A stretch of 64,000 nucleotides of DNA from an uncultured Latescibacterota bacterium (GTDB taxonomy: Bacteria; Latescibacterota; UBA2968). Under the pieces are notes generated by a model. It searched no databases. It saw only the letters and a list, made by a program, of their open reading frames with translations, and had not been told where the DNA came from. The stretch lies in contig OY282377.1 of NCBI GenBank assembly GCA_958295785.1, forward strand, positions 5,086,896 to 5,150,895, read 5' to 3'. Positions within the stretch are counted from its first letter, which is position 1. Each line of letters starts with the position of its first letter. Below are positions 36,646 to 63,538 of this stretch, one piece after another. Position numbers and translations under genes: made by a program.

Positions 36646-37737
36646 TAGGACTTACGCAATCTCCATTGGAATATGAGGTGCTTTGAGTTGTTGTCTCAAG
36701 AAGTCAGCCAGCCCTCGGTATTTGACTTGATAAATGGTTTGTCCTGTTTGATAGGCCACCTGCGCGAGTCGAATCCAAACGAACATCGCACACCCCATAT
36801 GATTTCGTACCATGCGTGCCAACCGACATGGACCCTTTTCAAGCCCGGTCACTTGTTTGACTTCGCGGTGAAATGGCTCAATTTTCCATCGCCTGTGACA
36901 CACCTGTTGTACCCCTGAAGAATCGTTTTGAGCATGGTCGTTGGTCACGACATACGCCGTGCGTCTATCAGAAGACGCCACTCGGAATCATTTCACTTTG
37001 TGGTCTTTGGGAAACCCTCTGATTTTAATTGGCTTGCCTTGTTTGCGATCCGCTTGAGTCCAAGTTAAGCTATCTACGCGCTGGTAGGGGGTTGTGCCTG
37101 CCGAATCGTCCACGCGCCGGTTCGTCTTGAGGGGACAAGAATAGGTTTTTTGCATCTGCTCTCTGTGTAACATGACCGTTTTTGTCGCATACCAACTGTC
37201 CATCAAGACCCCGGTAAAAGGAAGGCGCTTCTGATAGACCCACACAGAGCGCATGTCCTTGAGATGATCCAATTTGGTTTTGCCATCGCCTTGCGGGTCA
37301 TAAATCCGATCGTCAATCAGCCAGAACCGATCCTCTTGCGGATGGACATAGACACATGTGACCCCCCCGATGCCGTTGATGACGCCTTGGGCGTTGCCGC
37401 TATATTGACGACGCACTCACGCGATCTTGCGTGCGTGTCGCTTGTCTAAAACCGTGTCATCAAAGATCACATCGCCTTCAGGCGTCAACGCGATGGGGGC
37501 TTTGACGTGTTCCCACACCAAGCGGGGTGGAATACGCTCACCGGCGAGATAGCGGTTGATCCTATCATGACTGAACCCTTCGCTATGGTCGGCGAAATGG
37601 GTCAGGGTATCGTTGAGGGGACTGCTAAGCAGATACTGACAGGAATCCAAACGCGTCGGTTGGCGCATTGACACCTCCTCAAAGTGATAAATTTTACGGA
37701 ATTGCACCCTTTTTTAACTCAGCATGCGTAAGTCCTA
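36646..37737 (-). mobile_element. IS701-like insertion sequence, copy B (decayed)
   Basis: Same 1092-bp length and same TAGGACTTACGCA ends as copies A and C, but with many substitutions. The flanks (AGTAT left, TTAAT right) are not a duplication. This is an older copy or one involved in a later rearrangement. Confidence 0.92.
36652..37668 (-). pseudogene. IS701-like transposase with two nonsense mutations
   Basis: Aligned codon by codon with the intact copies. Leu codon TTA has become TGA at 37417-37419 (after KIA) and again at 36985-36987 (after DHKVK). There is no frameshift across the gene. Further amino-acid changes are scattered along it. Start equivalent to the ATG at 37668. Inactive, though its ends could still be used in trans by the intact copies. 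Confidence 0.9.
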
Positions 37738-37791
37738 TTAATATTATCACGATCAAAAAAGTTCTTTACCACTGATGAGACAGAAGCGATT

Positions 37792-42563: not shown

Positions 42564-42620
42564 AATGCGTTGCCCAACACGTCGGTGGCAGATCGAAATA
42601 TTGAAAACATTGACAATGTG

Positions 42621-42649
42621 AAAAGCCCGATGTTGTCTATCGGGCTTTT
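42621..42649. terminator. hairpin terminator between the DGQHR gene and cas6
   Basis: AAAAGCCCGAT and ATCGGGCTTTT around a 7-nt loop, symmetrical so usable from both strands. Related copies are at 49611 and 51685. Confidence 0.88.
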
Positions 42650-42730
42650 GGTTTGTGGCCGAAGGGATCGGCGATGATTTGGGAGTTCGCCGAGGATCTG
42701 CGGGATTTGATCGGGATTCGCGGATTCGCC

Positions 42731-43672
42731 TCACAGCAGCGCGTATTGTCCCATGCCAAAGCTGGTCCACTTGCCCACATGCACGGGCATGCCCAAGGCC
42801 AGCAGCAGGTGGAATCGCTCGAGGTCGCCTTCAAACGCCACATCTCCCGTAAAACCGCTTATCTGCATGCGGCGGTTCTTGCGGTTTGAATACCGTTCCC
42901 ATGTGCGCCAGGTCAAATTGTGATCCGCAGTTTGCACGCCTTTTGCATGTGCAATCCAGTCGCCGTAATTCAAATCCGGCGGCCCATCGCCGTGAAATGC
43001 GGACAGCGCAGAATACCGCCGCAACAGCGTGCGGATCAACACGGAAAAATTCAATCCCCGTTGCAACACGCGGTCCGCTTTGAGTTGTGTGGGGGTGAAA
43101 AAGGAAAGACGCACCCGTGACCCCATCGGACGAGGCATCACATCTATGGCACGCAGGCGCGGCACATCGCGTTGCAACATCTCGCTTTGCCCATCGTAAA
43201 CCGACTGCCACGATCCATCGGCATCTAGCGCCTCGCCCAAAATCAAATCGCACTTGCCGCGCCCGCGCCCAACGCCGGTTTCCCCCAAACGCTGAAACGC
43301 ATAGATAAAATACGGCACGTAATCCAACGCCTTGCCAATCAGCGTCAAACCGATGGCAAATCCATCGCCGGGCGCGTAATCGGTCTTGGTCTCCAGCGGC
43401 GGTTCGATCACATAGGGATGCGGCGCGTTCTGATAGCCGCGAAAAATGCCTTGTGCATTATCCACAGGGGTATCAAATATGTATGGATACACGCATTGCG
43501 CCCGAACCAAACACCGCGCACAATCCCCGTGTTGCACAATGCACACCGCCCGCTTAAACGCAATGCCAAAAGCCCCTCGAAATGTCGATCCCTTATACGG
43601 CGGCAGGCGCAATTGTTGCCGCGCCTGAAAGTGCAATCGCATCTGCGCGAAGTCCAAGTCGAATTTGAACAT
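42731..43672 (-). CDS. cas6: Cas6-type CRISPR RNA endonuclease (RAMP), copy A
   Basis: 313 aa; ATG 43672 after AAAGGAGATATTG. The N-terminus RLPPYKGSTFRGAFGIAFKR and the CARCLVRAQCVYPYIFDTP cysteine cluster are typical of the PF10040-like Cas6 group. The C-terminal glycine-rich loop is GMPVHVGKWTSFGMGQY. Such enzymes cut CRISPR precursor RNA. There is no CRISPR array and no other cas gene in the window, so this is a solitary cas6 or a repurposed RAMP nuclease. It is divergent from cbiX and duplicated at 51795-52736. Confidence 0.85.
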   Translation of the reverse strand: MFKFDLDFAQMRLHFQARQQLRLPPYKGSTFRGAFGIAFKRAVCIVQHGDCARCLVRAQCVYPYIFDTPVDNAQGIFRGYQNAPHPYVIEPPLETKTDYAPGDGFAIGLTLIGKALDYVPYFIYAFQRLGETGVGRGRGKCDLILGEALDADGSWQSVYDGQSEMLQRDVPRLRAIDVMPRPMGSRVRLSFFTPTQLKADRVLQRGLNFSVLIRTLLRRYSALSAFHGDGPPDLNYGDWIAHAKGVQTADHNLTWRTWERYSNRKNRRMQISGFTGDVAFEGDLERFHLLLALGMPVHVGKWTSFGMGQYALL

Positions 43673-43849
43673 CAATATCTCCTTTGGCCTTGCTGGACGG
43701 TCATGTTGCGACCCATATTAAACGCGCCGGTGTTCAAACTGTTATCCTCAACTCGCCTGAAGAAGTTGCCCTTGAAAGCATGTCGGTTCTGCGGTATCAT
43801 AAATCTGTTCAACAGCCACTCGCAGTCAGCCCTATTTCATACATTCGCT

Positions 43850-46094: not shown

Positions 46095-46933
46095 TCCATC
46101 TATCCAGTTGATCGGACACTTGAAAACCAAAAGAGGAATCGCCAGCTAACGGTTGTCCGAAAATTTTGAGGTTGCTCAACCAATACCAAGGCTATCTTCA
46201 TTTCTGTTGTTCGGCAATTTCAGCAACAGGACGGATTGGCGAATTAGAAGTCACAAAACGATATAACTCGCCAAAGGAGGTGTATATGGTTCATTGGATT
46301 TCCAGCCCGCATCCTATTTCCGACATTCGAGACTGGAGCAAAGCCAATCGTCTCGAACTTCAACCAGATTTTCAAAGACGCGCAGTGTGGTCTGCGTCTG
46401 CCCGCATCATGTTGATGGATACTATCCTGCGTCGTATCCCAATGCCCAAGATTTTTTTGGCTAATACTGTTCGTGACGGTTCTACGTATCGCGTCGTTAT
46501 TGACGGTCAACAGCGTATTTCAGCAATTCTCGATTTTCTTCGAGATGGCTTCGCGTTAAATCATCCGTTCACGGGAAAAAACAAAGGCAAAACGTTTTCA
46601 GAATTAGACCCCGAAACACAGGACAGTTTTTTGAGCTACCAAATTGATTTTAATGAGGCAGTAAAACCGACAGACGAGCAAGTGCGTAAAGTATATGCTC
46701 GCGTAAATAAGTACACCGTGCCGCTTACAAAACAAGAACTGAGACGAGCCGATTTTCCCGGCGACTTTCTCAAGGTCTCGGAAGAACTCGCCGTGAACGA
46801 CTATTTTGACGAAATAGGTATTTTCACGCCAGCTACGCGACGTAAATACGGCGATGTCGAGTACGTATCAGAATTATTAGCAGCTATGATTGGTGGCATA
46901 CAAAACAAAAAAACATCTCTCGACGATTTCTAT

Positions 46934-48025
46934 TAGGACTTACGCATGCTAAGTTAAAAAAGGGTGCAATTCCGTAAAATTTATCACTTTGAGGAGGTGT
47001 CAATGCGCCAACCGACGCGTTTGGATTACTGTCAGTATCTGCTTAGCAGTCCCCTCAACTATACCCTGACCCATTTCGCCGACCATAGCGAAGGGTTCAG
47101 TCATGATATGATCAACCGCTATCTCGCTGGTGATCGTATCCCACCCCGCTTGGTGTGGGAACACGTCAAAGACCACATCGCGCTGACGCCCAAAGGCTAT
47201 GTGATCTTTGATGACACGGTTTTAGACAAGCGACACGCGCGCAAGATCGCGTTAGTGCGTCGTCAATATAGCGGCAACGCCCAAGGCGTCATCAATGGCA
47301 TTGGGGTGGTCACATGTGTCTCTGTCCATCCGCAACAGGATCGGTTCTGGCTGATTGACTATCGGATTTATGATCCGCAAGGCGATGGCAAAACCAAATT
47401 GGATCATCTCAAGGACATGCTCTCTGGGTTGGTCTATCAGAAGGACCTTCCTTTTACCGGGGTCTTGATGGACAGTTGGTATGCGACCAAAACGGTCATG
47501 CTACACATAGAGCAGATGCAAAAAACCTATTATTGTCCTCTCAAGACAAACCGGCGCGTGGACGATTCGGCAGGCACAATCCCCTACCAGCGCGTAGATA
47601 GCTTAACTTGGACGAAAGCGCAACGCAAACAAGGCAAGTCCATTAAAATCAGAGGGTTTCCCAAAGACCACAAAGTGAAATTATTCCGGGTGGCGTCTTC
47701 TGCCAGACGCACGGCGTATGTCGTAACCAACGACCATGCTCAAAACGATTCTTCAGTGGTACAACAGGTGTGTCACCAAAGATGGAAAATTGAGCAATTT
47801 CACCGCGAAGTCAAACAAGTGACCGGGCTTGAAAAGTGTCAATGTCGATTGGCACGCATTGTACGAAATCATATTGGGTGTGCGATGTTAGTTTGGATTC
47901 GACTTGAGCAAGTGGCCTATCAAACAGGACAAACCATTTATCAAGTCAAATACCGGGGGGTGGCTGACTTCTTGAGACAACAACTCAAAGCACCTGATAT
48001 TCCAATGGTGATTGCGTAAGTCCTA
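46934..48025 (+). mobile_element. IS701-like insertion sequence, copy C (1092 bp)
   Basis: Identical end sequences to copy A; target duplication TCTAT at 46929-46933 and 48026-48030. It inserted in the sense direction within the DUF262 gene. Confidence 0.95.
47003..48019 (+). CDS. IS701/IS4-like DDE transposase, copy C
   Basis: 338 aa; ATG 47003 follows GAGGAGGTGTCA. It differs from copy A by only a few residues (for example SVHPQQD for YVNPQQD, TKAQRKQ for TQADRKQ). The three acidic catalytic positions (VIFDDT, VLMDSWYA, WKIEQFHRE) are intact. Probably active, and the likely source of recent mobility of this family in the window. Confidence 0.93.
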   Translation: MRQPTRLDYCQYLLSSPLNYTLTHFADHSEGFSHDMINRYLAGDRIPPRLVWEHVKDHIALTPKGYVIFDDTVLDKRHARKIALVRRQYSGNAQGVINGIGVVTCVSVHPQQDRFWLIDYRIYDPQGDGKTKLDHLKDMLSGLVYQKDLPFTGVLMDSWYATKTVMLHIEQMQKTYYCPLKTNRRVDDSAGTIPYQRVDSLTWTKAQRKQGKSIKIRGFPKDHKVKLFRVASSARRTAYVVTNDHAQNDSSVVQQVCHQRWKIEQFHREVKQVTGLEKCQCRLARIVRNHIGCAMLVWIRLEQVAYQTGQTIYQVKYRGVADFLRQQLKAPDIPMVIA

Positions 48026-51598: not shown

Positions 51599-51684
51599 TG
51601 GACTGGCGAAGAGTTCATTCACAATACGCGGGGTTGCTCAACCCATCGGTGGCAGATCGAAATATTGAAAACATTGACAATGCG

Positions 51685-51713
51685 AAAAGCCCGATGTTGT
51701 CTATCGGGCTTTT
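51685..51713. terminator. hairpin terminator, copy B
   Basis: AAAAGCCCGAT and ATCGGGCTTTT, as at 42621. Lies between the DUF4276 gene and cas6 copy B. Confidence 0.85.
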
Positions 51714-51794
51714 GGTTTGTGGCCGAAGGGATCGGCGATGATTTGGGAGTTCGCCGAGGATCTGCGGGATTTGATCGGGATTCGCGGATTCGCC

Positions 51795-52736
51795 TCACAG
51801 CAGCGCGTATTGTCCCATGCCAAAGCTGGTCCACTTGCCCACATGCACGGGCATGCCCAAGGCCAGCAGCAGGTGGAATCGCTCGAGGTCGCCTTCAAAC
51901 GCCACATCTCCCGTAAAACCGCTTATCTGCATGCGGCGGTTCTTGCGGTTTGAATACCGTTCCCATGTGCGCCAGGTCAAATTGTGATCCGCAGTTTGCA
52001 CGCCTTTTGCATGTGCAATCCAGTCGCCGTAATTCAAATCCGGCGGCCCATCGCCGTGAAATGCGGACAGCGCAGAATACCGCCGCAACAGCGTGCGGAT
52101 CAACACGGAAAAATTCAATCCCCGTTGCAACACGCGGTCCGCTTTGAGTTGTGTGGGGGTGAAAAAGGAAAGACGCACCCGTGACCCCATCGGACGAGGC
52201 ATCACATCTATGGCACGCAGGCGCGGCACATCGCGTTGCAACATCTCGCTTTGCCCATCGTAAACCGACTGCCACGATCCATCGGCATCTAGCGCCTCGC
52301 CCAAAATCAAATCGCACTTGCCGCGCCCGCGCCCAACGCCGGTTTCCCCCAAACGCTGAAACGCATAGATAAAATACGGCACGTAATCCAACGCCTTGCC
52401 AATCAGCGTCAAACCGATGGCAAATCCATCGCCGGGCGCGTAATCGGTCTTGGTCTCCAACGGCGGTTCGATCACATAGGGATGCGGCGCGTTCTGATAG
52501 CCGCGAAAAATGCCTTGTGCATTATCCACAGGGGTATCAAATATGTATGGATACACGCATTGCGCCCGAACCAAACACCGCGCACAATCCCCGTGTTGCA
52601 CAATGCACACCGCCCGCTTAAACGCAATGCCAAAAGCCCCTCGAAATGTCGATCCCTTATACGGCGGCAGGCGCAATTGCTGCCGCGCCTGAAAGTGCAA
52701 TCTCATCTGCGCGAAGTCCAAGTCGAATTTGAACAT
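51795..52736 (-). CDS. cas6: Cas6-type CRISPR RNA endonuclease (RAMP), copy B
   Basis: 313 aa, reading the same as copy A; the few base differences (for example near 52458, 52680 and 52703) look silent. Same ATG with AAAGGAGATATTG, same CARCLVRAQC cluster and GKWTSFGMGQY loop. With the reading frame fully kept, either the duplication is very recent or both copies are under selection. A MITE sits 48 bp upstream, in the spacer shared with cbiX, and separates the two divergent genes in this copy. Confidence 0.85.
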   Translation of the reverse strand: MFKFDLDFAQMRLHFQARQQLRLPPYKGSTFRGAFGIAFKRAVCIVQHGDCARCLVRAQCVYPYIFDTPVDNAQGIFRGYQNAPHPYVIEPPLETKTDYAPGDGFAIGLTLIGKALDYVPYFIYAFQRLGETGVGRGRGKCDLILGEALDADGSWQSVYDGQSEMLQRDVPRLRAIDVMPRPMGSRVRLSFFTPTQLKADRVLQRGLNFSVLIRTLLRRYSALSAFHGDGPPDLNYGDWIAHAKGVQTADHNLTWRTWERYSNRKNRRMQISGFTGDVAFEGDLERFHLLLALGMPVHVGKWTSFGMGQYALL

Positions 52737-52784
52737 CAATATCTCCTTTGGCCTTGCTGGACGGTCATGTTGCGACCCATATTA

Positions 52785-61692: not shown

Positions 61693-61721
61693 TTGACAGA
61701 ACAAAAGAGAAGCGGTATATT
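61693..61721 (+). promoter_or_regulatory. consensus sigma-70 promoter
   Basis: TTGACA (61693-61698), a 17-bp spacer, and TATATT (61716-61721). Transcription should begin near 61728. This is the best match to the housekeeping promoter consensus I noticed in the window. Confidence 0.75.
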
Positions 61722-61727
61722 GAACAA

Positions 61728-61900
61728 AGCTAACGCGCACGATGATGTTGGAGTGTGATATGCACCAGAGATTGCACACAGATTATTGCCGTAAAAAACG
61801 GCGGATTACGCTTCCGCCATGCCCCAAAGCGGAGTGTGTGACCCCGTGCGTGCCATCCGACTAAGCCCCTTGATGCGTCTGTGTCAAGGGGCTTTCTGTA
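61728..61900 (+). ncRNA. predicted structured non-coding RNA upstream of guaB
   Basis: A roughly 170-nt transcript unit with a strong promoter and a perfect 11-bp terminator stem (AAGCCCCTTGA / TCAAGGGGCTT, 61863-61894). No coding frame stands out. Possible pairings: CGCGCACG (61733-61740) with CGTGCGTG (61845-61852); GTTGGA (61747-61752) with TCCGAC (61857-61862), which would form a pseudoknot with the first; and two mutually exclusive hairpins, GCCGT/ACGGC at 61788-61802 and GGCGGA/TCCGCC at 61800-61818. It could be a 6S-like RNA, another small RNA or a guaB leader. Confidence 0.6.
61863..61900 (+). terminator. terminator of the predicted RNA
   Basis: An 11-bp perfect stem with a 10-nt loop, followed by TCTGTATTT. 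Confidence 0.85.
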
Positions 61901-61922
61901 TTTGACAAAGGCGAGAAACGAA

Positions 61923-61952
61923 TCGCAGGGGCGCGGCCCCTGTGCCCGCCCG
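61923..61952. repeat. dispersed GC-rich palindrome, copy 10
   Basis: TCGCAGGGGCGCGGCCCCTG then TGCCCGCCCG, between the RNA terminator and guaB. Confidence 0.8.

Positions 61953-61984: not shown

Positions 61985-63538
<1,554 letters not shown>

Follow-up and report, generated by a model that had tools for sequence, protein, structure and literature searches.

Our analysis of the region preceding guaB in an uncultured Latescibacterota bacterium suggests that this gene is controlled by a translation-coupled leader-peptide transcription attenuator working like that of pyrL-pyrBI, a reading to which we assign a probability of about 0.6 from comparative sequence evidence. The region combines the four elements expected of such a device, namely a promoter, a short open reading frame (ORF), an intrinsic terminator and a biosynthetic gene in the same direction; the promoter and terminator are present in all genomes of the order that were sampled, and the ORF in most genera. 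The stop codon of the ORF overlaps the terminator, the arrangement is conserved, and most relatives have no good second promoter. The relevant features of the window, the whole 64,000-nucleotide stretch of DNA that was analysed, are as follows.

61693-61721, + strand: sigma-70-type promoter, TTGACA-N17-TATATT, 11 of 12 consensus positions, kept throughout the order
near 61727, + strand: predicted transcription start
61750-61753, + strand: Shine-Dalgarno sequence GGAG of the leader ORF, present in 11 of 11 genus members
61760-61864, + strand: leader ORF, 34 codons plus TAA, putative translation MHQRLHTDYCRKKRRITLPPCPKAECVTPCVPSD
61834-61840, + strand: GTGTGTG tract shortly 5′ of the terminator, recurring in 5 of 9 genera; speculative site of GTP-dependent pausing
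61863-61894, + strand: intrinsic terminator stem-loop, its first two bases belonging to the TAA; U-rich tail to about 61899
62054-63538, + strand: guaB, IMP dehydrogenase (PF00478, CBS domains), presumed regulated gene

The leader open reading frame and its terminator

The initial annotation had described a near-perfect sigma-70 promoter and a textbook terminator bracketing an RNA ahead of guaB, and all three points are borne out: the promoter match is conserved across the order, the terminator has a stem of 14 pairs, a loop of 4 nt and a U-rich tail and recurs before guaB across the order, and the downstream gene encodes IMP dehydrogenase. The terminator sequence occurs only once in the window's genome, a single contig of 5.66 Mb. 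The sequence just 3′ of the U-tract (TGTATCC or TGTATTC; 61895-61905 in the window) is also conserved in most of the order, and its conservation there and at the equivalent positions of relatives exceeds what an ordinary terminator needs.

Overlooked in that sequence-only annotation was the ORF, which occupies most of the interval between promoter and terminator. Its ATG at 61760 opens a 34-codon frame, and its TAA (61862-61864) shares two bases with the foot of the terminator stem. Alignment in relatives, proposed initially as a check, recovered a copy of the stretch at 74-77% identity in all ten same-genus genomes examined, and promoter and terminator recur order-wide. The ORF is shared by these ten genomes (for example, MHQRFYTYCCRKKRRITPPPGLRAECVTVPAS), with conserved Shine-Dalgarno sequence, start and stop position; within the genus it varies in length by multiples of three, and in 11 of 11 members 1-6 nt separate the stop from the downstream CCCC of the stem. 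The within-genus pN/pS of the ORF, 0.49, is not significant and that of frame +1 is similar, which weighs against the attenuator.

Across representatives, an ATG-initiated ORF of at least 25 codons ending at the terminator was found in 10 of 12, as compared with 2.18 expected from dinucleotide-shuffled leaders, and when a Shine-Dalgarno sequence was required the count was 9 of 12 against 0.32 expected from the same shuffles. With one representative per genus, the corresponding probabilities were P = 1.9e-4 and, with the Shine-Dalgarno requirement, P = 3e-8. Amino-acid scores between genera exceeded those obtained when nucleotide changes were placed at random (p = 0.001 for G013-G014 and 0.0005 for G001-G013), values that are optimistic because the alignments were built on the peptides. 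Cysteine makes up 8.3% of the leader peptides and 3.5% of shuffled ORFs, lysine is enriched over shuffled ORFs as well, and 5 of 9 representative peptides contain consecutive proline codons (P = 0.02 against shuffles). Taken as sequence evidence, these results indicate that the leader ORF is probably real, and it is presumably translated.

The placement of the stop codon bears directly on termination. For 14 gene-terminator pairs within the window, the distance from stop to stem ranges from 2 to 87 nt and is at least 13 nt in 13 of them, as compared with about 0-2 nt for the leader ORF in most relatives. In E. coli, the ribosome almost completely represses a terminator that follows a stop codon by a few base pairs, an effect lost once the distance exceeds about 27 nt (PMC4824070). 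Geometrically, stops placed at -8 to +18 nt relative to the stem would let a ribosome translating the leader overlap the terminator.

Conservation of the leader in the order and beyond

The order was sampled through 21 genomes, 20 of them obtained by a guaB search and one (G014) located on a contig end. Every one of the 21 has a TTGACA-N17-TANNNT promoter, a leader of 118-180 nt and a near-identical terminator, CCCCTTGA...TCAAGGGG or a close variant, followed by guaB. Other genera and families also retain the arrangement of divergent TPR gene, leader and guaB. A short ORF whose stop falls between -8 and +18 nt relative to the stem is present in most genera, much more often than in shuffled leaders; examples are MVKHPLIVCCFCRKRWPAPLLNPGDGCVTKSVGF (G013), MHCFLVSHGLPFRKRRPTPLHNPMVGCAKKACLVL (G014), MKTKTPSPPPIVWGRPPANLRRVCTGCGEDL (G012) and MRNRSLAVKDRSSPPSLTCARRRRPAL (G017), together with MVIISSCYHGFNIRRLAPPIMGPGQVCVPAFMTP (G019) and MATKLPNRDFASHAGGLSCCYQNPGEAGYGLTQTP (G020), whose stops fall inside the 5′ arm of the stem. 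Several observations weigh against the attenuator: the peptide sequence diverges strongly between genera, the leaders of G012 and G011 are without a clear Shine-Dalgarno sequence or ATG (the G011 ORF has only a GTG start), and in genus g6 the stop lies 10-18 nt 5′ of the stem.

Outside the order, G021, which represents a genus in a further family of the class, shows the arrangement in looser form, combining a promoter and a GTGTGTGTG tract with a hairpin of another kind. Seven sampled guaB loci of family f4 have neither promoter nor terminator of the order type. When the same arrangement was sought in 80 guaB loci from many phyla, it was present only in a record from the same genus; at one other locus (L097) a short ORF weakly overlaps a hairpin. 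Three of these loci (L043, L047 and L074, from one acidobacterium and two deltaproteobacteria) have hairpins resembling intrinsic terminators about 50 nt before guaB, with no short ORF ending there, and it is possible that they represent guaB attenuators of another kind or the ends of upstream genes. A promoter-terminator pattern considered phylum-wide was rejected, its matches being mostly due to chance.

The gap between terminator and guaB is 51-97 nt in most relatives, and the best promoter match within it is 8 of 12. Because this gap is short and usually lacks a good promoter, guaB should need read-through of the terminator. Weighing against this, the gap widens to 160-265 nt in the window's genome and in three from genus g6, which leaves space for a further promoter. 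The guaA gene of the window's genome has no similar leader and no promoter- or terminator-like site; it follows another same-direction gene, with 66 nt between them.

Repeated sequences are found nearby and elsewhere in the window. A REP-like palindromic repeat, GGGGCGNNGCCCCNGYGCCCGCC, occurs at 61928-61950 and at eight further places, and a one-base-longer pattern has 167 exact copies genome-wide, with none for a reversed control. One copy lies within an extra 90 nt between terminator and guaB that is absent from genus-mates. Two 1152-nt copies (42569-43720 and 51633-52784), 99.4% identical and each with a 314-codon minus-strand ORF, look like a recent duplication or a mobile element, and three copies of about 1.1 kb (58-1149, 36646-37740 and 46931-48025) share 94-98% identity, one being inverted.

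Alternative readings of the leader

The ORF might instead be an independent small-protein gene with its own promoter and terminator, guaB having a promoter of its own that escaped recognition. The ORF does possess a promoter, a Shine-Dalgarno sequence and a terminator, and it is conserved in the genus. Between genera, however, the peptide is almost wholly changed while the promoter, the terminator and the guaB-proximal position are constant; a stop codon abutting the stem would impair termination of such a gene (PMC4824070), the peptide has no Pfam or NCBIfam match, and there is little room for a guaB promoter. We regard this explanation as unlikely.

A riboswitch or protein-binding leader, for example a guanine-nucleotide sensor, could also control the terminator without translation. 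Its location before guaB is suggestive, and the initial annotation had envisaged both a leader for GMP synthesis and mutually exclusive, possibly pseudoknotted pairings. The first idea stands in so far as the element precedes guaB order-wide with little room for another promoter, but where a folded aptamer might have been expected, the sequence looks like a translated ORF reaching the terminator. Similarly, mutually exclusive pairings do exist, as in most members of the genus either of two UUACAC copies can pair with GUGUGUAA, and the leader alone, without the terminator, folds more stably than dinucleotide shuffles (z = -2.97); the pseudoknot was not upheld and covariation support is almost absent. 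In the genus alignment the covariation term is only -0.24 kcal/mol, with double changes at 2 of 45 pairs. A covariance model of the genus leader without terminator gave 101.6 bits on the window sequence, which is in its training set, but did not exceed 6.2 bits in any of eleven further loci, of which ten represent seven other genera of the order and the last is that of G021. On the basis of RNAalifold and this model a conserved aptamer was rejected, and the structure conservation with covariation across relatives expected of a riboswitch of unknown class was not found. No consistent antiterminator partner for the 5′ arm of the terminator was detected, and no riboswitch model in Rfam matches the stretch or the related loci. 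A sensor of this type therefore seems improbable.

The leader could, alternatively, be a trans-acting small RNA or a 6S-like RNA running from the strong promoter to the terminator. A discrete transcript bracketed in this way would be consistent with such a role, as would the stable fold of 61693-61900 (z = -4.84 against dinucleotide shuffles with the terminator included). The Rfam search suggested initially, for 6S RNA and purine-related riboswitches, returned no match in the stretch or in ten related loci, with no 6S RNA (RF00013) appearing even at E <= 10, and a search of the whole genome gave no 6S match, so that the proposal of 6S RNA is unsupported. The proposal of a novel structured small RNA fares little better: because the leader structure is not conserved outside the genus, a structured small RNA, like a metabolite-binding leader, is disfavoured. 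The recurrence of ORFs in these leaders argues against this explanation as well, and we consider it quite improbable, while noting that a released leader RNA could possibly act in trans in addition.

A classical Yanofsky-type attenuator, in which stalling at Arg, Cys or Pro codons switches antiterminator and terminator, would fit the short ORF, its enriched cysteine and frequent Pro-Pro, and the mutually exclusive pairings of the genus, but is very improbable given the absence of a conserved antiterminator and of any codon run for the pathway product (GMP) in the leader peptides, the lack of a link between Arg, Cys or Pro and guaB, and the variation of the regulatory codons between genera. A version relying on cysteine codons, considered because cysteine is enriched in the peptides, was set aside, there being no obvious connection between cysteine and GMP synthesis.

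Proposed mechanism and related systems

We propose that the guaB leader is a translation-coupled attenuator operating as follows. RNA polymerase would start at the strong promoter and transcribe a leader of about 135 nt, while a ribosome loads at the GGAG-ATG and translates about 30 codons. With no ribosome present, or one that has fallen behind, the terminator would fold in vivo, releasing a leader RNA some 170 nt long. A closely following ribosome at the stop codon would cover the 5′ arm of the stem, preventing hairpin formation and allowing read-through into guaB. The signal could be anything that alters the relative speed of ribosome and polymerase, and candidates include a ribosome held back at Pro-Pro codons, a polymerase slowed in the G-rich tract when GTP is short, and general translation capacity. 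Polyproline upstream of the pyrL terminator is known to raise termination when EF-P is missing (PMC5021804). In a more specific version, a GTP-sensing counterpart of pyrBI, low GTP would cause polymerase to pause in GTGTGTG shortly ahead of the terminator, the ribosome would reach the stop and keep the terminator from folding, and guaB would be transcribed. Pausing of this kind is speculation, and we hold the GTP-sensing version as a tentative and rather doubtful extension.

Known examples of leader-peptide attenuation come mainly from amino-acid genes and, among nucleotide genes, from pyrBI. In the growth-rate attenuator of E. coli ampC the leader is a minimal start-stop unit, in contrast to the ORF of about 30 codons before guaB; in both, a ribosome beside the terminator would raise read-through under active translation. 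The closest likeness is to the UTP-sensitive, coupling-dependent pyrL-pyrBI system of E. coli, in which a nucleotide-synthesis gene is likewise preceded by a leader ORF and by an intrinsic terminator whose folding a closely following ribosome prevents (PMC4824070, PMC5021804). The two differ in that pyrL, a 135-bp leader gene, runs through its terminator (PMC4824070) whereas the guaB leader stops at the stem, and in that pyrL-pyrBI senses UTP whereas the guaB leader has another target and its nucleotide sensing is hypothetical. Amino-acid leader-peptide attenuators (trp, his and Mycobacterium ilvB1; PMC13236596) share the order of promoter, short ORF, terminator and biosynthetic gene. Unlike them, the guaB leader has no conserved antiterminator and no product-related codon run, and a ribosome at its stop should oppose termination rather than favour it. 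Another small transcript adjoining guaB, the Yfr1 RNA of marine cyanobacteria, is 54-57 nt long, lies at the opposite end of guaB in the interval to trxA, and has no ORF at a terminator (PMC1242208). We found no report of a leader peptide or attenuator for guaB or IMP dehydrogenase in the open literature, a body that leaves most subscription papers outside its coverage, and guaB goes unmentioned in the main text of a wide survey of attenuators in bacteria (PMC2965389).

If confirmed, the attenuator would tie guanine nucleotide supply directly to transcription-translation coupling in a little-studied, mostly uncultured phylum. Should the GTP-sensing version be true, polymerase itself would sense GTP, without aptamer or repressor. 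The leaders of the order would also lend themselves to comparison, as the peptide drifts among them while the geometry of stop and terminator stays.
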